Of a stretch of 48,054 bases of DNA, positions 6,867-47,131 are shown piece after piece; within the stretch, counting starts at the first letter, position 1; each line of letters starts with the position of its first letter. This stretch comes from a virus: positions 1 through 48,054 of IMG/VR virus record IMGVR_UViG_3300037116_000060. One strand, 5' to 3'. Position numbers and translations under genes: made by a program. Under the pieces are notes generated by a model, which had not been told where the DNA came from, did not search any database, and saw only the letters and a program-made list of their open reading frames with translations.

Positions 6867-7759
6867 AAGTATATCTGTGCGCGATTGCCCTATTTCTGTC
6901 CGCGTGCGGGGGAGGGAGTGATCCATCGGCACCGACTGCCGCGCCTGCGCCGGCAACGATACCTGCGGCCACGCCTGCGGCACCGGCAGCTTCGCCCCCC
7001 GTGGCCACTCCAGCCGCACCCCCGCCTGCGGTACCCCCCCCGACAGTCTCCCCCGTCCCCACGCCATCATCCGTCGCCACGCCTAACATGGGCGGCTTCT
7101 GGATCGCGCCTGGGCCTGATGGCGAGACCAGCTACCTGATCTCCACCGCAGCCGGCGAATTCTTCATGCTCGAGAACCAGCCACCGCAGGACTTCACCGT
7201 GTGCCCGTATCTCTTCTACGGCACCCTGACCGACGTGGAATCGACGCTGACCGGATCTGGCTATGGTGCCGATGCTGATGATCTGACGCTGCCGGATGGG
7301 ATTGTCTGCGGCGGCGCAGCAACTCTTGAGGCGTTCAGCGGCACGCTGTTGACCACGCTGACGCTATCCGCTTCTGGAGAACTCAACGGCAGTATCGAAG
7401 GCAACCCGCAGCCCGGATACGCGGCTACGCCGTCCGTAGCATCGCTCTCGGGCTCCTATACGCTCCTGGCAGGCGATATCCTGACGATCGATACTCAGGG
7501 TAATCTGAGCGAAACGGAAGCCAGCAGCGGCTGTACGTTCGCCGGAGCGGTATCCGTGATCGATACCGGCGCGGTCTATCGGGTATCGGTGACGGCCACG
7601 GGGTGCACGTCGACCAAGACACAGTCCTGGAACGGCGTGGTGGAAGTGGGCTTGCTGGCGCTCCTCGCCAATGACGATGGCATCAGCCAGTCGCCGGTCT
7701 TTGCCGGAACGTCCTTCACGGACAACAATGGCGCTAGGCAGGTCAGGATCTTTCAGTAG
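6863..7759 (+). CDS. Large putative lipoprotein with Pro/Ala linker
   Basis: MKVYLCAIALFLSACGGGS is a lipoprotein signal with lipobox LSAC (Cys15). Residues about 20-75 are a Pro/Ala/Thr linker; residues 75-298 form a beta-rich domain beginning NMGGFWIAPGPDGET with several Gly-Ser-Thr strands and four cysteines. The product is probably anchored in the outer membrane by its lipid with the domain held off on the linker. It closes the rightward operon and overlaps the last 7 bp of the leftward lysis gene. It may be a cargo (moron) gene altering the host surface. Confidence 0.65.
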   Translation: MKVYLCAIALFLSACGGGSDPSAPTAAPAPATIPAATPAAPAASPPVATPAAPPPAVPPPTVSPVPTPSSVATPNMGGFWIAPGPDGETSYLISTAAGEFFMLENQPPQDFTVCPYLFYGTLTDVESTLTGSGYGADADDLTLPDGIVCGGAATLEAFSGTLLTTLTLSASGELNGSIEGNPQPGYAATPSVASLSGSYTLLAGDILTIDTQGNLSETEASSGCTFAGAVSVIDTGAVYRVSVTATGCTSTKTQSWNGVVEVGLLALLANDDGISQSPVFAGTSFTDNNGARQVRIFQ

Positions 7760-8268
7760 CTACTTAGAATGGTCGTGCCGTTTTTGCCGCTTACCAACAT
7801 GGCCAGCATACCAGGGGAAGTGCCATATGTAGGCACGAATAGCCTTCGCAATCCGCTAACGTCAGGTATGCCCCAGAGATCACTGCTCTCGCCAGCCGCC
7901 GTGGCGATGTCCGAGCAAAACCAGTGATCCGGCGTGCGAAAATCGTATCCCAGTCCGAAGTTATTGACGATTGCTCGCCAGTCGTATGGCTTGCCTTCTT
8001 GGCTTACATAGAACGCATGGTAGGACTCGCGCTGCAGCGTCGTGCATGGGAGGGCGAATACCGTGCGGTGTTCCCACTTCTCGTAATCCGGTGGGCGGCC
8101 CCAGACTCCAGATGCTTTGCCGCCGACCTTATCTGATCTAGCGCCCCATAACACTCCGTCCTCAAACTCGCAATCGACGTGCGAAAAGAAGCCGGTCACC
8201 CGACCGATGAGGCCCGAGCTGAATCCTTCGCCTCGAACGAATGCCAGCTTTACTGCGGCGTCGTTCAC
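7753..8268 (-). CDS. YiiX/NlpC-like papain-fold amidase
   Basis: The 171-residue protein has the layout of the permuted papain-like (YiiX/YebB, NlpC/P60-related) family: GLIGRVTGFFSHVDCEFEDG with the candidate catalytic His, GKPYDWRAIVNNFGLG, and DHWFCSDIATAA with the candidate catalytic Cys after Phe. Such phage proteins are thought to cleave peptide bonds in the cell wall or modify envelope components. It lies at the end of the leftward lysis region, overlapping the next gene by ATGA, so a lysis or wall-processing job is plausible. Confidence 0.65.
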   Translation of the reverse strand: MNDAAVKLAFVRGEGFSSGLIGRVTGFFSHVDCEFEDGVLWGARSDKVGGKASGVWGRPPDYEKWEHRTVFALPCTTLQRESYHAFYVSQEGKPYDWRAIVNNFGLGYDFRTPDHWFCSDIATAAGESSDLWGIPDVSGLRRLFVPTYGTSPGMLAMLVSGKNGTTILSSY

Positions 8269-9550: not shown

Positions 9551-11152
9551 TCAAGAATGTTTCGACGTCCAGTTGAAAAAATACGCGCCCGAAGTATCGA
9601 GCGTCGTGTTGGACGGGGTGTTGTTGTCCCAACTCTGCGTGAGATTCGGCGCCCCGAAGCCGTTCGCCGGGTTGAGCGCCCAACCGACCACGCCGTATCC
9701 CTGTTGGTCCGCCACGCCGAGTACAGACGAGATGTAGGACGAGCCGCTATTGCTATCTCCGACCTCCGTGATAACGACGGGAACATTCGTCGCGTTCAGC
9801 ATCGCGACCGCAGCGCCGGCATTGCTGCCGATGTCATAGCCGAGACCCTGATTATAGTCGTGATGCGCGGCGGCGATTTGCGCCGGAACTAGCGTGTCTA
9901 TGGGCCGGTTGCTAGTCCACCACGTCTCGTCGTTGCTCCAAGCCACCCCTCCCATCAGCACAACATTCGTGGCGCCCGTCGCTCGAACTGCGCTCAACAT
10001 CTGCTGATAACCGGCCCATCCGCCACCGCCGCCATCGACAACGGCGTTTGAAATGTCATGCGGCTCGTTGTAGAGCTCGAAGATAACCGCAGGATTACCC
10101 TTGAACGCATTGGCGAGAGAGGTCCAGAATGTAAGCGAGTAAGCCGTGTCGGCCATCTGCTGCTGCTGACTGGCAATAGCGCCGGCAGTAGGCGAACTCC
10201 AGTGCAGATCGACGATCACGAACAGGCCGTCAGCGGTGTACTGAGCAACGGATTTCTGCACCACGGCCACGTAGTTACCACTTGGATCAGGATTCTTGCC
10301 AGAACTATTGGCGTAGTGCAGCCAAGATTCCTCATTCAGCGGCAGCCGCACGACGTTGCACTTCTTCGCTATGACGAAGGCGTCGTTCGGGATGTTGCCA
10401 GATGAGGTGCCGAAGCCCCCGTATCCCCACGGGTCGCCGCTGCCGAGGATGCTGGATAGCTCCAACCCGGACATATTCACGCCGCGCAACTGAACGGCCG
10501 CACCGGTCTTCGTGTTGACCAGCGTCTTGCCGACGACTTTGATACCGAAGCCGGAACCACCGCCGCTCGATGAACTTGATCCCCCGCTCGATGAACTACT
10601 GCTGCTAGCGACGGGCGGACAAGCTGGCAGCCCCTTCAATCCGGCCAGCGCAGGAGAGAGCGTGCCGCTGAAATTGTACCAGTTGCAAGACGCGTTCTCC
10701 TGCCAGAGCATGCCGTTGACGTAGGCGATTGCGATGACGTTGGCCGTGCCTGCAAGCACCGCGCCGTTTTGCACAATCTGCTGACCAGCGCTGATCGCCC
10801 AGCTATGCCCTGCGGCATCTGTAAGCGTTGGGCCGACAGTGGTGACAACAGTGCCCGAGGGAGATGCCCCGCCGCCGCTGGAGCTGCTCGAGGAAGACGA
10901 ACTGCCAGAACTTGACGATGAGGAACCGCTTGACGAACTTGCTCCGCTACTGCTCGAGCTTGAGGAGGACGTGGGTCCAGGTGGTCCTTGTGGGCCGATG
11001 GGTCCCTGCGCCCCTGTAGGACCAGGAGGACCAGGTATCGGCGCCGGAATAGTGATCGTGACGCTGCCACCAATGATCGGCACGGTTTGCGTCGTCTGGG
11101 CAAAGACAGCACCCGCAGCGGTTGCCAAGATGAGAGAAGCAACGATTTTCAT
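9551..11152 (-). CDS. Secreted GH5 glycoside hydrolase with collagen-like and polyserine linkers
   Basis: A 533-residue protein. Residues 1-18 are a Sec signal peptide; 40-60 are Gly-X-Y collagen-like triplets; 61-95 are polyserine; 101-180 a module with DAAGHSWAI and VNGMLWQENAS; 183-200 polyserine again; 215-530 a glycoside hydrolase family 5 domain. Catalytic-site residues are visible: R269 in VVRLPLNE, H317 in DLHW, N362-E363 in LYNEP (acid/base), H430-H431 and E463 in VVITEVG (nucleophile). GH5 enzymes cut beta-linked glucans and mannans such as cellulose. It sits inside the lysis region, downstream of small membrane proteins. Polyserine linkers recall exported cellulases of marine and soil gammaproteobacteria. 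The substrate is unknown. Confidence 0.85.
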   Translation of the reverse strand: MKIVASLILATAAGAVFAQTTQTVPIIGGSVTITIPAPIPGPPGPTGAQGPIGPQGPPGPTSSSSSSSSGASSSSGSSSSSSGSSSSSSSSSGGGASPSGTVVTTVGPTLTDAAGHSWAISAGQQIVQNGAVLAGTANVIAIAYVNGMLWQENASCNWYNFSGTLSPALAGLKGLPACPPVASSSSSSSGGSSSSSGGGSGFGIKVVGKTLVNTKTGAAVQLRGVNMSGLELSSILGSGDPWGYGGFGTSSGNIPNDAFVIAKKCNVVRLPLNEESWLHYANSSGKNPDPSGNYVAVVQKSVAQYTADGLFVIVDLHWSSPTAGAIASQQQQMADTAYSLTFWTSLANAFKGNPAVIFELYNEPHDISNAVVDGGGGGWAGYQQMLSAVRATGATNVVLMGGVAWSNDETWWTSNRPIDTLVPAQIAAAHHDYNQGLGYDIGSNAGAAVAMLNATNVPVVITEVGDSNSGSSYISSVLGVADQQGYGVVGWALNPANGFGAPNLTQSWDNNTPSNTTLDTSGAYFFNWTSKHS

Positions 11153-20172: not shown

Positions 20173-20345
20173 CGCCGATCCGCAGCCTTAGCCAGTCGCA
20201 TCGTTCCCTCTTCCACGTACTTGTCGAGTTCATTCTCGATCAGATACGACATTGCGATAACGTCAAAGGCGCGATCATCGATGATCCTGCTCGCCAAGTG
20301 CTCGGCAATGTCGCGGGTGTCTTGGGTTTGAGGGGAGTCAGTCAC
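20169..20345 (-). CDS. Small acidic protein
   Basis: A 58-residue protein from GTG 20345, overlapping the Nudix gene by 8 bp and the GNAT gene by ATGA. Helical, with EHLASRIIDDRAFDVIAMSYLIENELDKY. No family recognised. Confidence 0.5.
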   Translation of the reverse strand: MTDSPQTQDTRDIAEHLASRIIDDRAFDVIAMSYLIENELDKYVEEGTMRLAKAADRR

Positions 20346-21264
20346 GTTTGGGGCCTGGAAGTTTGACGAGGGTGCCAATCAGTTCCTTACGGACACGGTG
20401 CACGAAACTGTCGAGCACGCGGTGCCCGAGATCGATGTCGCCGCCGCCAACTTGCCTGACGTGACTGGGCGAAATAACCCACTCGCCGCCAGCCGCCACA
20501 ATCGGCACGCCCGAGGATTCGCCGCCGTGGGCCTTACCCGCACGCGTGGCGAGTTTTTCGAGCGCAGCCTTGACGCCCGGATGCAGCGGTAGCTTTGCAG
20601 CCTCATCTAGGGTCACCCATTTGGCCGTGTCATGTTCATGGTTGAGCGCCGGATTAAAACGTTTAGAATGAGCAAGATACGTGACGAAGTCTACCCCATT
20701 TTTGTCGCTATGCATAAAAGGCGACAAACCGCCCTCGTGCTCGTATCCGGACTCTTCCCGCGTCTCGCGGCGCGCGGCATTTTCAGGGGTTTCGTCCTTT
20801 TTGATGCCGCCAGCCGGGAATGCCCATTTACCCTGATCGCCGTCGTTTTCGGTCCTGCGCATCAGCAGCACTTCTTTCTCGGGAGATAGGAACAGGATGC
20901 CGGCGGCGCGGGTGCGGCCTCCGCGGGCGTACTGGACCGGCAGCCCGTAGACGCCGGATTTTTGGCCGTATGGTGCGGAGCCGTGACCGTACGGCTCGCC
21001 GCCGAAGGTTCGGCGCAGGACTTTGAAGCCGGCGAGAGTGTTGCCGCTGCCGCCCGCAGAAACGATATCGGCAGGCAAAACGTATGACCCCGAAGAAACC
21101 GTTATGGGCAGGTGATCTGTCCGACCCGCAACGCCACTATGAATCGGCCCCGCGTGAAACCTCGGCGTGCGTGCTCCGGGCCCAGCCGTGGTCGTAGTGG
21201 TGACTCCACCTTCGTCGCGGCGCTTGCGGGCCGTGTGTAGAGCTATTGTGACTGGATCGCTCAT
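20338..21264 (-). CDS. Phage structural-type protein with an inserted Nudix hydrolase domain
   Basis: A 308-residue protein in three parts. Residues 40-110 (GRTDHLPITVSSGSYVLPADIVSA and following) and 252-308 (PIVAAGGEWVISPSHV, GGGDIDLGHRVLDSFV, TLVKLPGPK) resemble the two halves of a conserved phage protein found near tail genes. Between them, about 117-242, lies a Nudix domain with a near-complete box at 152-174 (GG, E157, then RETREESGY). Nudix enzymes hydrolyse nucleoside diphosphate derivatives. The fusion suggests a catalytic domain carried by a virion-associated protein or a late-expressed enzyme. ATGA-coupled upstream. Confidence 0.7.
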   Translation of the reverse strand: MSDPVTIALHTARKRRDEGGVTTTTTAGPGARTPRFHAGPIHSGVAGRTDHLPITVSSGSYVLPADIVSAGGSGNTLAGFKVLRRTFGGEPYGHGSAPYGQKSGVYGLPVQYARGGRTRAAGILFLSPEKEVLLMRRTENDGDQGKWAFPAGGIKKDETPENAARRETREESGYEHEGGLSPFMHSDKNGVDFVTYLAHSKRFNPALNHEHDTAKWVTLDEAAKLPLHPGVKAALEKLATRAGKAHGGESSGVPIVAAGGEWVISPSHVRQVGGGDIDLGHRVLDSFVHRVRKELIGTLVKLPGPKRD

Positions 21265-28636: not shown

Positions 28637-29337
28637 CTAAAATACCCACTAATCATCGGCGATATATAAATGTTGGCCTGTTCGACGTTTTGTCTGCTTG
28701 CGATACCGAACGTTTCGGCCGCCTTCATTTTCAACATAGGAGTCTTGTCTGGCGCCCACGAATACGACAACACCTCAGCCAGTCCGAATGCATAAGCATT
28801 CTGGAAGTACACCGGAATCTCTACGTTCTGGCCGTTCGCCAGATTTGAATCTTGCGTTTGTCTAAGTCTGTAGTATTTGAAACATGCCTGCCGCCCATCT
28901 GGGCACGGCCACAAATTGGCGGTGGGAGACAATAATCTGTTGAACCATACAGTAGTCGGCATTCCCTGCTGCTTCTTGTTCGGATAACTCGCATATTCCG
29001 TACGACTGATCGGCGTCATAATCCGATCAATCTCCTGCTGGCCATTATTGAACGTGCAGTACATGTCGAGCATCACGATGGTGTTCGACGGCACTGGATA
29101 TGTAGGACATCCTTGAATTAACGGTATCCGCTCCAGATCAACCTGCCAAAGATTAACGCCGTTGGCGCTCCACTCTCCCATCAGGAGATTGGTCGCCATC
29201 CTTGCATCCTCAAAATGCTCTTGGAGTAGGGCCGTTCTACGTACACCACACAACCCGAACGCGAACGCGACCGCCTCCCCCATTCCGGGAGAGAACTGGT
29301 ATGCGCCACTAGTATTGGATGGATTCGGCGTACTCAC
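28633..29337 (-). CDS. Head-tail adaptor-like protein (P22 gp4-type)
   Basis: A 234-residue protein. EAVAFAFGLCGVRRTALLQEHFEDARMATNLLMGEWSANGVNLWQVD, IPLIQGCPTYPVPSNTIVMLDMYC and YFQNAYAFGLAEVLSYSWAP form the pattern of podoviral head-completion or tail-adaptor proteins, which extend the portal ring. Position next to other tail genes agrees. Which ring of the tail it forms cannot be told. Confidence 0.6.
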   Translation of the reverse strand: MSTPNPSNTSGAYQFSPGMGEAVAFAFGLCGVRRTALLQEHFEDARMATNLLMGEWSANGVNLWQVDLERIPLIQGCPTYPVPSNTIVMLDMYCTFNNGQQEIDRIMTPISRTEYASYPNKKQQGMPTTVWFNRLLSPTANLWPCPDGRQACFKYYRLRQTQDSNLANGQNVEIPVYFQNAYAFGLAEVLSYSWAPDKTPMLKMKAAETFGIASRQNVEQANIYISPMISGYFR

Positions 29338-32493: not shown

Positions 32494-32660
32494 CAGATCA
32501 CGGCGGCCTGCGCGGAATGCCGCCGGGCAACACCGAGCGATGGCGCGAACGAATAACTCCCGCTCGTATTCAGCGGATTCTGCCCTCCCGGCCCAGTCAA
32601 GGCACCTCCAGCGACTTCAACAGTGCTGGCGCTTCCAGGTCCGCTGATGACAGTGCTCAT
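32493..32660 (-). CDS. Small protein between GH5 and spike genes
   Basis: A 55-residue [24 protein letters not shown] to [10 protein letters not shown]. Its start overlaps the GH5 gene's stop (ATGA) and its stop overlaps the spike start (TGATG). Gly/Ser/Ala-rich with no recognised family. Its coupling makes it likely real. Confidence 0.5.
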
Positions 32661-34504
32661 AGATGGGTCGCAGTCCAGTTGAAGAAGTATGCGCCGCATG
32701 TGGTAGTGGTCGCTGTGCCAGCGCTGTTGTTCCAGGTCTGGGTAAGATTTGGCGCACCGTAGCCAGCGGCAGGATTCGCGGCCCAAGCAATAACGCTGTA
32801 GTGATTCGTGTCAGCGAGGGGCAGAATGCCCGCGCCTTCGCTGGATGGCGCGAGGTAACTAGTGACGCCGTTACTGTCACATGAAGTCTCATCGATGACG
32901 ACTGGAACTCCTGCGGCGTTGAGCATCGAGATAGCGGCGGCTTGAGTACCCGTAAGACCTAGCTCATAGGTCAGACCTTGATTGTAATCGTGATGCGCTA
33001 GGGCAATTTGGTGAATGGAGTCCGTCGGCGCATTCGAGGTCCACCACGTCTCGTCGTTGCTGTAGACAAGACCGCCCATCAGCACAACATTAGTAGCTCC
33101 GGTCGCACGCACGGCGTTGAGCATGGGTTGGTAGCCTTCCCATCCGCCCGTGCCAGTGTTGAGCTGCGCATTGGTGCAGCAGTTATGCGGCTCATTGTAA
33201 AGCTCGAAGATTACAGCCGGATTGCCCTTGAAGGCACCAGCGATACTCGTCCAGAAAGAAGCCGAGTAAGTCGTGTCGGCCATCTCTTGCTGCGAAGTAG
33301 CTGGGCTGTTCGGCCCGGTTCCATTCCAATGCAGATCAAGGATGACGTAAAGCCCGTCGCCAGTGTACTGCGCGACCGCTTTTTCGACAGTTTGCTTGTA
33401 GTTGCCCTGAAGGTCAGGGTTGTTGCCGCCAGAATAGTCTAGCCACGCCTGCTCATTCAGCGGAAGGCGGACAGCGTTTACCTTTTGGCTGATAAGATAA
33501 GCGTCATTAGGAATCGTGCCGGCTACGCCAAAGGTTCCAGAGGCAACAGTACCAAAGCCCGAGGCACCGCCATTCCAGGGGTCGTCAGAGCCGCTGGAGG
33601 AGAGCGTACCAGCCTCCTCCATCCCAGACATGTTGACGCCGCGTAGTTGCACCACAGCGCTAGCTTGGTTGATGAACTTCGTAGCGTTGCCGCTACTACC
33701 TACAGCGATACTAAAGGCGCCGCTCGAGCTAGAACTGGTGCTAGAACCGCCGCTGGAGCTAGAGCCTGAACTCGAACTCGAGCCCGCAGTTAGGCTATTA
33801 AAGGCAACCTTGAAGGCAGCGGTCTGCTGTATCCACCAGCCTGTAGGCGTGGCCGTGGCAGTAGAGGCCCAAGCGCCAGCAAAGGTAACAACCTCGTCCT
33901 CTAATAGGTTGCCCCCGGAAGTCAAGATGCGCTGAGTAAAGCCGGCGCCAGGAGTAGCGTTAGTGCCGTAGATGTAACTTGCTCCGACCAGCAGGTCGGA
34001 GGACTGAGTAGTAGTAGCATTACCGCTGTTGAGGGCCGTGCCAGTGGTAGCACTTGCACTGACCTGGGTGTCGAAGGCGATAATGTTCGAGTATTCAACA
34101 GCTCGGATATCTTGGTTGGCGGGGGTGCCGCTAAAGACGACAGTGATGCTGTTGGCTCCGGCGCCAGACGCCAGGATGCTCGGGGCGTAGTAGATAGCTT
34201 GGCTGTAACCGCTGGTAGCGGTGACCGGCGCAGCTACGCTGTAGGTATTGCCCTCAGTGTCGGTGACGGAGGTGATCGCCGCCGAACCACTATTAAAACC
34301 AATCGCGACTACGTTCCAATCGCCGACGAGTTGCGCTGAGGCATAAGTGACGGTGCTGACATCGACGCTAGAAGCGACCTGAACAGGCGGCACAGCTATA
34401 GCGTAGCTGCCGATAAAGTTCGCCGGGATTATGTTCGCGCCAGCAATCGCAACTAGCGCTGCGATGCCCAGCGAACAGAGCGTGATGATCAGGCGATCCA
34501 TCAA
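32657..34504 (-). CDS. Second GH5 glycoside hydrolase with N-terminal beta-sandwich domain
   Basis: A 615-residue protein. Residues 5-23 are a hydrophobic signal or anchor; 30-240 form a beta-sandwich domain (SVTDTEGNTYSV, SITVVFSG, AVEYSN); 241-261 is a Ser/Gly linker; 275-615 is a GH5 domain closely resembling the one at 9551-11152 (VQLRGVNMSG, NAVRLPLNE, DLHW, FELYNEP, HHDYNQGL). E438 (acid/base) and E539 in VVIDET (nucleophile) are present. The N-terminal modules of the two paralogues differ entirely, pointing to domain swapping around a shared catalytic unit. Confidence 0.85.
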   Translation of the reverse strand: MMDRLIITLCSLGIAALVAIAGANIIPANFIGSYAIAVPPVQVASSVDVSTVTYASAQLVGDWNVVAIGFNSGSAAITSVTDTEGNTYSVAAPVTATSGYSQAIYYAPSILASGAGANSITVVFSGTPANQDIRAVEYSNIIAFDTQVSASATTGTALNSGNATTTQSSDLLVGASYIYGTNATPGAGFTQRILTSGGNLLEDEVVTFAGAWASTATATPTGWWIQQTAAFKVAFNSLTAGSSSSSGSSSSGGSSTSSSSSGAFSIAVGSSGNATKFINQASAVVQLRGVNMSGMEEAGTLSSSGSDDPWNGGASGFGTVASGTFGVAGTIPNDAYLISQKVNAVRLPLNEQAWLDYSGGNNPDLQGNYKQTVEKAVAQYTGDGLYVILDLHWNGTGPNSPATSQQEMADTTYSASFWTSIAGAFKGNPAVIFELYNEPHNCCTNAQLNTGTGGWEGYQPMLNAVRATGATNVVLMGGLVYSNDETWWTSNAPTDSIHQIALAHHDYNQGLTYELGLTGTQAAAISMLNAAGVPVVIDETSCDSNGVTSYLAPSSEGAGILPLADTNHYSVIAWAANPAAGYGAPNLTQTWNNSAGTATTTTCGAYFFNWTATHL

Positions 34505-43410: not shown

Positions 43411-43981
43411 TCAAACTTTGCGTTTGCGGGCAGATCCAGGAATTACCGTTAACACTTCCTCGATAGGCCAACCGGCATGATGCCGAGCTTCAATCGTTCT
43501 TCGACCAATGCCGACGCGCTCAGACCATTCGGCGACCGTCAGTGTACAACCGTCGAATGTCAATTTGAGATTGCGACGCGTGTTGCGCGCCTGATCTTTC
43601 GGTGTGCGCCACGCGCAATTTCCAGGCTCGTAATTGCCGTCGTTATTCAACCTGTCGATCGTCAATCCAGGCGCTGGCTCTCCCATGTCAGCCAGAAAAT
43701 TCTCAAAGCTACTGAGCCATCGGTCGCAGACCTTGATGCCGCGTCCGCCGTAGTTTTCGTACTCTCTCAATTTAGGATTGACGCATCTCGCAATCATCTT
43801 GCACCAGACGCGATAAATTCTAGTTCCTGCGCCGACAGAGTGGCCATGTGTCAGGTTTCTCTTGATCGTTACTTCCGACTGAAGGCAGCCGCAACTCTTG
43901 CTGTGGCCGATCCTAAGTTTGTAGGAACCGACAAACTGAACCGTTCCGCAATCGCAGCGGCATTCGTGAAAGTGAATCTTG
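43411..43981 (-). pseudogene. HNH endonuclease gene, 3' part (split by transposon)
   Basis: The larger part of a 220-codon HNH-type gene. It contains CRCDCGTVQFVGSYKLRIGHSKSCGCLQ, WCKMIARCVNPKLREYENYGGRGIKVCDRW, then IDRLNNDGNYEPGNCAWRTPKDQARNTR, the core of this phage endonuclease family, and a C-terminal helix-turn-helix-like stretch (LTVAEWSERVGIGRRTIEARHHAGW). Its N-terminal 33 codons lie beyond the transposon at 47032-47131. The frame also runs into the transposon end (TTG at 44043), so a hybrid N-terminus might be made; the native start is lost. Confidence 0.85.
43974..43981. repeat. Target-site duplication, left copy (GAATCTTG)
   Basis: Identical to 47032-47039 and directly adjacent to the inverted repeat. 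Eight base pairs is the usual duplication length of IS1595-family elements. Excision leaving one copy restores the HNH frame. Confidence 0.9.
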
Positions 43982-44024
43982 CCAGATTGGGTAGTTGAGA
44001 AACCTACTGTACGTGCGTACAGTA
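43982..44024 (+). repeat. Left terminal inverted repeat
   Basis: Begins CCAGATTGGGTAGTTGA; its first base differs from the right copy, the next 16 match exactly. The inner part holds a LexA-like palindrome. It matches the reverse complement of 46989-47031 at 34 of 43 positions. Confidence 0.88.
43995..44024 (+). promoter_or_regulatory. Inward promoter with LexA-like operator, left end
   Basis: TTGAGA at 43995-44000 and TACAGT at 44018-44023 are 17 bp apart, a good sigma-70 layout directed at the gene at 44061. The box TACTGTACGTGCGTACAGTA (44005-44024) is CTGT-N8-ACAG with near-perfect symmetry, as in LexA operators, and covers the -10. The LexA reading is an inference from consensus. Confidence 0.65.
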
Positions 44025-44060
44025 TAGCCACGTGACAGGCCAAAATGGCAGTTATCTACA

Positions 44061-44381
44061 ATGGGTTCTGCCGCACAGAAAGAAGTGCGGCATCGGCTAA
44101 AGCTACGCTCTATGGAAAATGAGCTAAAAAAGGTCCGCGAGTGGGCCGAGGAAAAACTCGCCCAAGGCAGCGAACCGCCTTGGGCGTGGTTTCAGTATAT
44201 GAAGCTCGTCGAGACCATCCGCGCTCTAGAGGCTGGTATGGCCGCCACCATTACGCGAACGGAGAATTCACCGCAATCGGAACAGCGTCCGGATGCACAT
44301 CTCCGATTAGTGGCTTCCACTGATCGGCAAGATATCGCTCAACCCCATCCTGTTGGGCTGCCGGTATTGTTGCCCATGTGA
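44061..44381 (+). CDS. Transposon cargo: small helical protein
   Basis: A 106-residue protein starting at ATG 44061, 37 bp inside the left promoter/operator. Residues 1-62 are charged and helical (ELKKVREWAEEKLAQGSEPPWAWFQYMKLVETIRALEAG); the end is Pro/Gln-rich with HLRLVASTDRQD. The EPPWAWFQYMKL block looks like a conserved motif of a small protein I cannot name. Its last 131 bp overlap the convergent GIY-YIG-like gene, an unusual arrangement if both are translated. Confidence 0.6.
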   Translation: MGSAAQKEVRHRLKLRSMENELKKVREWAEEKLAQGSEPPWAWFQYMKLVETIRALEAGMAATITRTENSPQSEQRPDAHLRLVASTDRQDIAQPHPVGLPVLLPM

Positions 44382-44613
44382 CACGCAGTACGCCATTCGC
44401 TCTATAGGCAAGTATCTGTGGATCCACTCGATGTGTGCCTAGGCGATTCCGTATAGGGTTTCCTTGGCCTAGATACACAACGCGTCCCGGATTTCCTTCG
44501 TGCCAGATCACATACACACCGTACTCCGTCACGGTGTCCAGATTGAGATCCACCAATGGGCACCAATTATAGTTTGGTGCTTTGCCGCATTTGATCCATT
44601 GAACGTTAAGCAT
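44251..44613 (-). CDS. Transposon cargo: GIY-YIG-like nuclease domain protein
   Basis: A 120-residue protein from ATG 44613. It shows the GIY-YIG order: GVY (residues 32-34), VVYLGQG with YLG at 47-49, the catalytic-type Arg in PIRNRLGTHR (R55/R57), Glu in GVERYL (E92) and Asn in AVNSP (N116). No DNA-binding domain is attached, so specificity would have to come from elsewhere. Its start codon and that of the gene on the other strand share one CATG. The family call is from motif spacing by eye. Confidence 0.6.
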   Translation of the reverse strand: MLNVQWIKCGKAPNYNWCPLVDLNLDTVTEYGVYVIWHEGNPGRVVYLGQGNPIRNRLGTHRVDPQILAYRANGVLRVTWATIPAAQQDGVERYLADQWKPLIGDVHPDAVPIAVNSPFA

Positions 44614-44815
44614 GAATATAACCTCACATATGGTGCGCAATGAATGCGGCTGGTACAGTGCGCACGTGTCCAGTACAGCCGACAGAGCCAAGTCCGACGA
44701 CGCAGCGCCTGAATTTCGTCGCGTTGTCGAACGCCTCTTGTCCCTACCGCCAAAGCCTAGAGTCACAACAAGAAAAAAGGCTAAGGCGAAAAAGCCTAAG
44801 GTCAATGGAGCGTAG
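44612..44815 (+). CDS. Transposon cargo: small basic protein
   Basis: A 67-residue ORF from ATG 44612 (or 61 residues from ATG 44630). FRRVVERLLSLPPKPRVTTRKKAKAKKPK gives an amphipathic helix and a very basic tail. It diverges from the GIY-YIG-like gene at a shared CATG, so the two starts are on top of each other. Function unknown. Confidence 0.45.
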   Translation: MNITSHMVRNECGWYSAHVSSTADRAKSDDAAPEFRRVVERLLSLPPKPRVTTRKKAKAKKPKVNGA

Positions 44816-44885
44816 GGGGAACGATCCCCTGGCAGTTGGATAGAAAGCCTCCGCCGCTACCTAGCACGCCCCATCGGCCCACCAC

Positions 44886-44940
44886 GGCCTCCGTAGCGCT
44901 CCCGCCAGCAAGTGAGCGCGCTACGGGGGCCTTCTCTTTT
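44886..44940 (+). terminator. Strong rightward terminator hairpin
   Basis: A 9-bp stem CCGTAGCGC (44891-44899) with GCGCTACGG (44918-44926), extended by GGCC pairing outside, is followed by TTCTCTTTT. It would end the rightward cargo transcript from the left end before the leftward DUF5343-like gene. The 44816-44992 interval otherwise holds no gene. Confidence 0.7.
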
Positions 44941-44992
44941 GTGCAGCGAGCTTCAGTGCCGGTGAGCGTGGCAGCCGAAGCTCTGGACCCTC

Positions 44993-45700
44993 TTACTCAT
45001 CACCAGCCTCCTGCGCGGGTTTCTCCGCGACGATGAAACAGAAATCCAGCATTGCCTTAAATGCGCTCTCGAATTTGTCGCGCTCTGCCTTAGTCCAAGA
45101 GCCTTGTTCTGGCGGCAGTTTCGTCAGCAAAGCGGCAATGGGTGCTGGCGCTCCGGTCGGCAGCGCTGCAACCCCCTGCTTTACCGCCGGACGGTATGTG
45201 GTGAACGCAGCTTTGCCAGTGCCAGGTGAGGCTGCCTTTCGCGCCGCGGGTCGCGGAGTCGAAGCGGCCTGATCGTCTGTACGCAGACCGGAAGCGCGGC
45301 ACAGTCCTAGAAACAACGACACCATTCGTGGTTGTTGTCCAACGGGGTTGTAGGCGCGGAATGCGTCGCGGATTGCGCCTTCGTCGTCCGACGCGTTAAC
45401 GAAAGACAGCACGTCCGCGTATACGGCGCTGATCCAAGCTGCCTGACGGGCCTTCAATTCCGGCTCCGGCGCGCGTCGCAGCCCTTCGAGGGTTTCAGTG
45501 GGCTGCCCATCCTCCGTCATCAGTTCCAGCGCTATGAGCGCCTGAAGGGTGCGTGGTATGAGACTATCAGAAACTCCGGCGCGGGCCAGAACCTCGCCTG
45601 TGAACGGGGTTGATAGCCCCTTATTGCGATACCGGGTTATGAAGTCCAGAATTGCTGATGTTGGCGCATAAGGTGCGGGGTTGGTTGCTGTGACTGCCAT
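44993..45700 (-). CDS. Transposon cargo: DUF5343-like protein
   Basis: A 235-residue protein from ATG 45700. APYAPTSAILDFITRYRNKGLSTPFTGEVLARAGVSDSLIPRTLQALIALELMTEDGQPTETLEGL has the layout of DUF5343: an N-terminal winged-helix-like domain with a helix-turn-helix followed by a helical domain ending RMVSLFLGLCRASGL. A Pro/Ala linker and a C-terminal helical segment follow. It may bind DNA. It is transcribed away from the 45865 gene. I recall this DUF only by pattern; the assignment is moderate. Confidence 0.55.
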   Translation of the reverse strand: MAVTATNPAPYAPTSAILDFITRYRNKGLSTPFTGEVLARAGVSDSLIPRTLQALIALELMTEDGQPTETLEGLRRAPEPELKARQAAWISAVYADVLSFVNASDDEGAIRDAFRAYNPVGQQPRMVSLFLGLCRASGLRTDDQAASTPRPAARKAASPGTGKAAFTTYRPAVKQGVAALPTGAPAPIAALLTKLPPEQGSWTKAERDKFESAFKAMLDFCFIVAEKPAQEAGDE

Positions 45701-45864
45701 GTTTCCGATCTCCATTAAGTCCGTGGTTCTATCGTAAACATATGTTTTAGAAAATTCAACTTGTTTTGGTACTGTACTGACGACGTTGTACAGACGTTAA
45801 TGCATTGATATGAAAGATAAAATATAATCTACTGTGCTCCGAGTACAAGAAACAGGAGCGATCT
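45701..45864. promoter_or_regulatory. AT-rich divergent regulatory region
   Basis: Separates the DUF5343-like gene (leftward) from the 45865 gene (rightward) and is much richer in A and T than the neighbouring genes. A TATAAT at 45823-45828 could be the -10 of the rightward gene. Palindrome-like CTGT...ACAG pieces occur (about 45772-45796), with a gap too long for a LexA box. Promoters for both genes must lie here. Confidence 0.5.
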
Positions 45865-46071
45865 GTGAACGACATTGGCTTTCAGGTAATTGGGCCAGAG
45901 ATCATAAAACGACCCAGAGGCGGGTTTCTGGCAATCAGCAACCGCTGCACCACCCTGCGTATCGGCGTAATCGCTGACACGGAGGAGCAGGCCAAGCGGG
46001 AGTTTGGCGAAATCGTGGAACGATGGATGAAGGAGCGCGCTGCGGAGTTATCGCAGCAGTCGGCGCACTAG
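45865..46071 (+). CDS. Transposon cargo: small protein
   Basis: A 68-residue protein from GTG 45865 with AGGAG 8 nt upstream. FQVIGPEIIKRPRGGFLAISNRCTTLRIGVIADTEEQAKREFGEIVERWMKE suggests a compact alpha/beta fold with a terminal helix, loosely reminiscent of HicB-type half domains. It ends one base before the convergent transposase gene. Not recognised with certainty. Confidence 0.5.
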   Translation: MNDIGFQVIGPEIIKRPRGGFLAISNRCTTLRIGVIADTEEQAKREFGEIVERWMKERAAELSQQSAH

Positions 46072-46072
46072 T

Positions 46073-46969
46073 TCATCTGTAGGTCAGCCGCTTGCCCTCG
46101 ATGCCCTTGAGCGTATTAACAGCTCTCTGCGCATCGTTCGTGCCGAGCGCGGCGCGATGGTTGTAGCGGAACGAAAACTCGTTCACGTATCGGTGCAAAT
46201 GCGCGGGGCTCACGTGCTGGTAAATGCCGCCGATGCCGCGCTTGAGAATGCCGAAGTAACCCTCGACCGTGTTGGTGGTTACATCGCCGCGCGCGTATTC
46301 CTTGGCCAGATGGTTGACGGTCTCATGGCTGGCGAAGCCCTTGCCAATCTTGGTGTACAGCGGCGCGCTGTCAGTCATGAGGCGGGCACTGGCCGCAATC
46401 TGGCCCTCTAGGATCGGTTTGAGGCTGGCGGCGGTCACGGTCGGCACATGGAACGCGCGGACCTTACCGTTACGCTCCACGAGCGCCACGACCTTCTGTT
46501 TCTTGCTTCTGTGGGAGCCTTTGCCCTGGCCTTCGGTCTTACCGAAGTAGGTCTCGTCGGCCTCGACAATACCGCTGCTGCCGGGACCACCCAACAGAGT
46601 CGATGAGCCGTCCTTCATGGCCTCGCGAATACGATGGCTCAAGAACCAGGCCGTCTTGTATTGAACGTCCAGCATCCGATGTAGCTGGTGCGAGCTAATG
46701 CCCTTCTTGCTTGAGCACATCAGATTCACGGCCAGCAGCCACTTAGACAATGGGATCTTGCTGCGCTCGAAAAGCGTCCCGACTGTCACGCTGAACTGCT
46801 TGCGGCACGGATAGGACGAGCACTTGTAAAGTCCGGGACGACCACCCTTGATGGGCCAGCCGCCCTTATTAGTGCAATGCGGGCAAACCGGGCCGTTAGG
46901 CCAGCGCACGGACTCTAGGAAGTCGCGGGCTTCTTCTTCGGTTTTGAACTCAGGGATTTTGGTGGCCAT
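46073..46969 (-). CDS. IS1595-family (ISXO2-like) DDE transposase
   Basis: A 298-residue, full-length transposase. An N-terminal zinc ribbon has C29, C32, C50 and C55 (CPHC, then CSSYPCRKQFSVTVGTLFERSKIPL). The DDE-type core shows GIVEADETYFG (D138), LMTDSAPLY (D200), and RGDVTTNTVEGYFGILKRG with E236 (and N233), followed by RYVNEFSFRYNHR. These are the marks of the ISXO2/IS1595 group. AGGAG lies just upstream of the ATG. It is driven by the inward promoter of the right repeat. Confidence 0.93.
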   Translation of the reverse strand: MATKIPEFKTEEEARDFLESVRWPNGPVCPHCTNKGGWPIKGGRPGLYKCSSYPCRKQFSVTVGTLFERSKIPLSKWLLAVNLMCSSKKGISSHQLHRMLDVQYKTAWFLSHRIREAMKDGSSTLLGGPGSSGIVEADETYFGKTEGQGKGSHRSKKQKVVALVERNGKVRAFHVPTVTAASLKPILEGQIAASARLMTDSAPLYTKIGKGFASHETVNHLAKEYARGDVTTNTVEGYFGILKRGIGGIYQHVSPAHLHRYVNEFSFRYNHRAALGTNDAQRAVNTLKGIEGKRLTYR

Positions 46970-46988
46970 AGCGATCTCCTATGGCTCA

Positions 46989-47018
46989 TACTGTACATGC
47001 ACACAGTGGGTGTGTCAA
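46989..47018 (-). promoter_or_regulatory. Transposase promoter with LexA-like operator, right end
   Basis: On the minus strand TTGACA (complement of 47013-47018) and TACAGT (complement of 46990-46995) are 17 bp apart, about 20 bp upstream of the transposase ATG. The box CTGT-ACATGCAC-ACAG (46991-47006) is a LexA-type match covering the spacer and -10. It mirrors the left end, so transposase and cargo may both be SOS-repressed. Confidence 0.7.
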
Positions 47019-47031
47019 CTACCCAATCTGT
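46989..47031 (-). repeat. Right terminal inverted repeat
   Basis: On the minus strand it begins ACAGATTGGGTAGTTGAC. Contains the transposase promoter. Compare with the left repeat at 43982-44024; changes concentrate in the middle of the palindrome and in positions 18-24. Confidence 0.88.
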
Positions 47032-47039
47032 GAATCTTG
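47032..47039. repeat. Target-site duplication, right copy (GAATCTTG)
   Basis: Directly outside the right inverted repeat; identical to 43974-43981. Confidence 0.9.
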
Positions 47040-47131
47040 GCACCCGACGGGTAAGTGCGCGTCTCAGTCGCTTCTAATGCAGTCCAACGACCAAATCGGT
47101 CGCCCGGCGTGATAGGCTTGCGGGAAGGCAT
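47032..47131 (-). pseudogene. HNH endonuclease gene, 5' part (split by transposon)
   Basis: Reads MPSRKPITPGDRFGRWTALE, then ATETRTYPSGAKI up to the transposon, with GGAG upstream of ATG 47131. Joined across one copy of the duplication to the 3' part at 43973, it continues HFHECRCDCGTV without a shift. The reconstructed gene has 220 codons. The GDRFGRWTALE start is typical of this HNH family, which confirms the reconstruction. Confidence 0.88.

Follow-up and report, generated by a model that had tools for sequence, protein, structure and literature searches.

A cargo-bearing IS1595-family transposon within an HNH endonuclease gene of a phage genome

Insertion sequences (IS) of the IS1595 family that carry passenger genes have been called "transporter IS", a term credited in PMC3129680 to Siguier, Gagnevin and Chandler 2009. 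Such elements have a transposase with a zinc ribbon and a DDE domain, imperfect terminal repeats and an 8-bp target duplication, with unrelated passenger genes placed behind the transposase. Another described relative, ISCsp2, is an IS1595-like element of ~1.05-1.09 kb that has no cargo. Here, we analysed the virus record IMGVR_UViG_3300037116_000060 of IMG/VR over its full length of 48,054 bases (hereafter, the window), which contains a complete IS1595-family transposon of 3,050 bp at positions 43982-47031. This element has all the above features of a transporter IS and is one; its kind is known, and what is unusual is its location.

Anatomy of the element and its interrupted target gene

The window element is an intact cargo-bearing IS1595-family transposon in a phage genome, as a preliminary description of the same DNA had proposed from its letters. 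The target-site duplication (TSD) of 8 bp that characterizes the family is present and perfect, again in agreement with that description. The 43-bp inverted repeats claimed earlier exist as 43-nt arms (43983-44025 and 46988-47030); they are not identical, being 81% complementary, i.e., imperfect. Counted from their termini, the two ends match at 35 of 45 positions; a comparison over 24 positions gave 20 matches. In relatives the ends are arranged likewise, with ATT close to the tip and a TTGACA-like hexamer from position 14 on, and the terminal repeats resemble those of related family members in this respect; on the transposase-side end, most close relatives have a -35-like hexamer at this position. 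The transposase gene starts 62 bp inward of the right end. Its product matches both IS1595 domains, Zn_ribbon_IS1595 (PF12760, 1e-14) and DDE_Tnp_IS1595 (PF12762, ISXO2-like, 2e-36), reaches 208.7 bits with the NCBIfam model transpos_IS1595 (NF033547, cut-off 75) and contains no internal stops, so that the earlier claim of a full transposase holds.

The transposon separates the two parts of an HNH endonuclease gene (Table 1). When the flanks are joined without the element and one copy of the duplication, an uninterrupted open reading frame (ORF) for an HNH endonuclease of 220 aa is obtained. The coincidence of a TSD, terminal repeats, a transposase gene beside one end and the exact restoration of the interrupted ORF goes beyond chance. 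Given the perfect TSD, the intact transposase and the restored gene, we conclude that the insertion is recent, which was one of the two options put forward in the preliminary description. Further substantiating this, the viral contig L074 carries an intact HNH homologue (63% identity) next to the structural genes that also adjoin the window gene, and the alignment runs unbroken across the insertion point at codon 31. Contig L070, with proteins flanking the locus that are 97-98% identical to those of the window, is a closer relative than L074 and has neither the HNH gene nor the transposon, with just 173 bp between p47251 and p42671. An uninterrupted gene in the one contig and the absence of both gene and transposon from the other suggest a young insertion in a dispensable gene. 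Relatives sharing both cargo and location, but without repeats or duplication, had been named as potential counter-evidence; none was found, and L074 and L070 are both without the element.

It is very probable that an IS1595 cargo transposon jumped once and recently, by a DDE-type reaction with an 8-bp duplication, into a dispensable HNH gene of a lytic-type tailed phage. A bacterial cargo transposon would thereby have been caught in such a phage soon after its insertion, together with relatives that show the target gene either intact or absent. Because the insertion is recent and these relatives are at hand, phage-mediated spread of such an element can be studied directly.

Table 1 Features of the transposon and of the interrupted gene in the window
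Feature	Position	Strand	Evidence
Left target-site duplication GAATCTTG	43974..43981	.	8/8 same as right copy
Right target-site duplication GAATCTTG	47032..47039	.	8/8 same as left copy
Left (cargo-side) terminal inverted repeat CCAGATTGGGTAGTTGA...	43982..44026	+	
Right (transposase-side) terminal inverted repeat ACAGATTGGGTAGTTGACA...	46987..47031	-	
IS1595-family transposase, 298 aa, intact	46073..46969	-	PF12760, PF12762, NF033547
HNH endonuclease gene, 3' part	43411..43981	-	PHROG 374 HNH endonuclease, 4.9e-59
HNH endonuclease gene, 5' part, start codon at 47131	47040..47131	-	insertion at codon 31
Inward promoter-like site, left repeat, TTGAGA-N17-TACAGT, 9/12, towards cargo	43995..44023	+	
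Inward promoter-like site, right repeat, TTGACA-N17-TACAGT, 10/12, towards transposase	46990..47018	-	
LexA-operator-like dyad CTGTACGTGCGTACAG over left -10	44007..44022	.	pattern search
LexA-operator-like dyad CTGTACATGCACACAG over right -10	46991..47006	.	pattern search
Cargo gene, DUF5343 protein, 240 aa	44993..45715	-	PF17278, 3.8e-17
Cargo ORF, 120 aa, weak motif-based suggestion of a GIY-YIG-like nuclease	44251..44613	-	PF01541, E 0.061, below cut-off
Cargo ORF, 106 aa, no family match; first ORF behind left-repeat promoter-like site	44061..44381	+	ORF
Small cargo ORF, 67 aa, doubtful	44612..44815	+	ORF only
Cargo ORF, 68 aa, good ribosome-binding site (AGGAG)	45865..46071	+	ORF and ribosome-binding site

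Cargo, relatives and the carrier phage

Approximately 2 kb of cargo lie between the stop codon of the transposase and the left end, including at least the DUF5343 gene, which is unrelated to transposition. The five further ORFs reported earlier can be drawn, but DUF5343 is the sole one with a family match above threshold. A tblastn search with DUF5343 gave no match in plasmids, a search of viral contigs was also negative, and a sequence search of the PDB returned weak stray matches only (E at least 0.07); a single-sequence structure model had a mean pLDDT of 41.7 and was not used. In the GIY-YIG-like ORF, the residues GVYVI...VVYLGQG agree with the motif by eye, and a search of plasmids with this ORF was negative. 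It overlaps tail to tail with the 106-aa ORF, for which tblastn of plasmids was likewise negative. For the ORFs of 106, 67 and 68 aa, no family match reached significance, and their reality as genes is uncertain.

The nearest transposases are 69-70% identical and belong to two proteobacterial metagenome genomes; none closer was found in viral contigs. A tree with 44 rows places the window element in one clade (support 100/99) with L003 and L154, the latter being the insertion also designated L002. Around it lies a clade of 31 rows (100/98), all elements of which are longer than 1.8 kb, and 13 short IS of ~1 kb fall outside. The cargo differs from element to element and includes Trypsin_2-like proteins, D12 and N6/N4 methyltransferases, a type I restriction-methylase fusion, and DUF3800, P63C, PIN, NYN, HicB-like and Beta protein genes. 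DUF3800 is a repeated passenger, present in at least four distinct IS1595 elements (L188, L241, L273, L277). Cargo-bearing relatives are also present in viral contigs, at L062 with adjoining tail genes and at L065/L066. The earlier claim that cargo transposons are rarely kept in phages can thus be maintained as far as they are uncommon; given these two other viral contigs, they are not unique. L065 and L066 are parts of one viral contig of 69,623 bases, and as its two ends share the IS1595 element and neighbouring ORFs, either the contig is terminally repeated over a long stretch or its assembly overlaps. Pattern searches gave 31 matches of the 16-bp end in viral contigs and two of a terminal repeat plus operator, all without a transposase; the element DNA had no match in phages, and the L002-like end pattern was found among 369 genomes only in that of L002 itself.

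For the major capsid protein of the phage (41231-42145), viral contigs contain at least 596 relatives. The record of 48 kb is probably incomplete, since the longer relatives with this capsid protein reach ~55-70 kb (61 kb in MW202675, a named relative with a complete genome). For the same reason, the earlier argument that packaging limits penalize the additional DNA is weak, as 3 kb lie inside the natural variation. Apart from the HNH gene, no gene was seen to be broken, and those for tail, head and exonuclease proteins are intact. The scan of window proteins, which covered part of the window ORFs, revealed no integrase, and none is annotated in MW202675. The intact structural genes and the lack of an integrase in these two sets make a lytic-type life cycle likelier than a decaying prophage. 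Other genes of the phage include two with glycosyl hydrolase family 5 (cellulase) domains at 9551-11152 (-) and 32657-34504 (-) (E 3.8e-35 and 1.7e-31), enzymes of a type unusual for a phage particle, a NUDIX-domain gene at 20338-21264 (-), and an ORF at 7753-8268 (-) that matches an enoyl-CoA hydratase-like moron family.

SOS-operator-type sequences in element ends and insertion sites

The LexA operator of gamma- and betaproteobacteria has the form CTGT-N8-ACAG. Three such dyads occur in the window, two of which lie in the terminal repeats and both start at terminal position 26. An operator placed over a promoter, as expected for a LexA-regulated element, is accordingly present as sequence at both ends. 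One end of L003 also has CTGT-N8-ACAG at terminal position 26, again over the -10 of an inward promoter-like site. The third dyad of the window, at 28937, lies inside a phage ORF and was not used by the transposon.

Judged from these motifs, transposition of the window element may be under SOS control. The transposase would act on both element ends, each of which would provide an inward promoter, one driving the transposase and the other the cargo. With CTGT-N8-ACAG over both -10 boxes, transcription would be controlled by LexA and the element would stay quiet until SOS induction. The source copy would reside in the bacterial host, where the phage would have picked up the element, and the cargo would serve the element or the host rather than the phage.

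Operator-type sequences also appear at insertion sites. We compared the targets of 55 elements with perfect duplications, which had been delineated automatically by matched ends and an 8-bp duplication; as L257 gave three different candidates, some of the 55 may be misdrawn. In these targets, short inverted repeats enclose a core rich in A and T (81%), with 131 flank pairs in six positions compared to 88 +/- 8 after shuffling (0/2000 shuffles as high). An exact CTGT-(TSD)-ACAG target was found in 4/55, whereas the octet is expected by chance ~0.0008 times in 55. Two of the four (L154, L003) belong to the clade of the window element and two (L178, L208) to a distant lineage. Another exact site, CTGT-ACAAATGC-ACAG, was found for L293, an ISCsp2 copy in Diaphorobacter. 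L180/L209 and L297 are one base off, and L296 has one half-site, near an SOS-response-associated peptidase gene. In L002, the full operator is regenerated at both junctions. At L178/L281, a cargo-free IS1595 element lies directly upstream of a lexA-like ORF followed by an ImuA-like ORF (L281 3352-4050); the identities of the two, apparently LexA and then ImuA-like, were read from the sequence with no database match. The insertion site of the window element itself, GTGC-CAAGATTC-ACTT, is not of the CTGT-(TSD)-ACAG form.

A mere preference for palindromes was rejected as the full answer, because, of the five elements with complete pairing of the four bases left and right of the target, four have CTGT/ACAG. 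We also rejected the idea that the element ends dictate the target, since L178 and L208 have the ends AAGGGG/ATGGGG and yet target CTGT-N8-ACAG. Genome G251 holds two near-identical IS1595 copies (L208, L209) in different places with the same duplication ATATCCAT in CTGT/G-N8-ACAG sites. The cargo elements L235, L237, L251 and L271, three of them with CCTAATT ends, have AGG-N8-CCT targets, so that the preferred short palindrome seems to vary from branch to branch.

Targeting of operators by IS1595 elements thus appears as an unexpected lead. The larger by-product of the analysis is that two separate IS1595 lineages inserted exactly in SOS-operator-type sites; one of these lies in the promoter of what appears to be a lexA-imuA operon. 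Were this general, the SOS response could be rewired or co-opted by transposon insertion, and SOS-controlled mobility of cargo would become testable. Among open-access papers, with most subscription journals outside this scope, we recognised none that links insertion of IS1595, ISCsp2 or other IS to LexA or SOS boxes. Tentatively, an IS1595 branch might be built around the SOS response: its members would home to LexA operators with the TSD as operator spacer, in some, inward promoters at the ends would be overlaid by LexA operators, transposition and cargo would be switched on by DNA damage or phage infection, and lytic phages would carry the elements between hosts.

Alternative explanations and comparison with known systems

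The preliminary description had offered a decaying prophage as its other option, with the transposon as one of several accumulating lesions. IS elements are generally known to accumulate in defective prophages, and with a linear fragment of 48 kb an integrase may lie in the missing part. We nevertheless consider this reading very unlikely, as the large structural ORFs are intact, the relatives are abundant in viral contigs, and the scanned proteins of this fragmentary record revealed neither an integrase or prophage remnants nor several broken genes. As the record is a metagenome assembly, the apparent insertion might also be a chimera of a bacterial element and a phage contig. This is hardly credible, because a chimera would not yield a perfect 8-bp duplication at both matched repeats with the HNH halves in frame on either side. 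Alternatively, the cargo could be useful to the phage, in counter-defence or superinfection exclusion, and selection could have kept the insertion. The DUF5343 gene, the GIY-YIG-like ORF and the position of the element in a nuclease gene slot would fit such a role. We regard it as improbable, considering that the element is found in one phage and that no relatives with this cargo were detected; moreover, the perfect TSD and the restorable target suggest that the insertion is too young for its retention to be judged.

The dyads in the ends could bind the transposase or a regulator of the element, such as the DUF5343 protein, instead of LexA, and relatives could reach LexA boxes through a liking of the transposase for palindromes. 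This is a serious possibility, if a somewhat doubtful one. A CTGTAC...GTACAG dyad with another spacing is present at 45772-45793, between DUF5343 and the 68-aa ORF, and the AT-rich cores with paired flanks in the 55 targets fit a palindrome preference. Further, the L297 target CTGG-N8-ACAG is a GC-rich, non-SOS-looking site, so that targeting probably does without the LexA protein. On the other side, the -10 dyads of both window-element ends have the exact spacing of the LexA operator, and the ends of ISCsp2-type elements and of L154 are without the dyad although these elements target it.

Returning to a recent, possibly SOS-controlled insertion, several observations weigh against it. The promoter scan gave three matches compared to 1.5 expected from shuffles, which is barely above. 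Of the relatives examined, L154 included, none has the LexA dyads in its ends, except for the one end of L003. It is therefore the motif itself that speaks for the putative LexA control. The HNH gene looks dispensable, sporadic and mobile from its distribution; however, it occurs at this locus in L074 only, among 80 capsid-bearing loci, so that few phages stand behind the word dispensable. Finally, the search for the same element at other loci revealed no second copy of the exact element, and its mobility is therefore deduced from its anatomy.

Compared to the described transporter IS, the window element differs in its residence in a phage, its repeats of ~43 bp and the LexA-operator-like dyads over inward promoter-like sites, and its combination of DUF5343 and GIY-YIG-like cargo is absent from the other elements examined. 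The interrupted gene belongs to the free-standing HNH genes of phages (PHROG 374), being present or absent among related phages at one locus; it differs from them in that a transposon has broken it at codon 31. The gamma/betaproteobacterial LexA operator is matched exactly by the two ends of the window element and by the sites in which its two nearest relatives are inserted, whereas the insertion site of the window element does not match it. ISCsp2-type elements share the IS1595 family and the 8-bp duplication with the window element. They differ in having no cargo and, as represented by L178, in a transposase only ~30% identical to that of the window and in other ends (AAGGGGTATC...). In common with the nearest relatives of the window element, the ISCsp2-type insertions L293, L281/L178 and L208 are located in sites of the CTGT-N8-ACAG kind.

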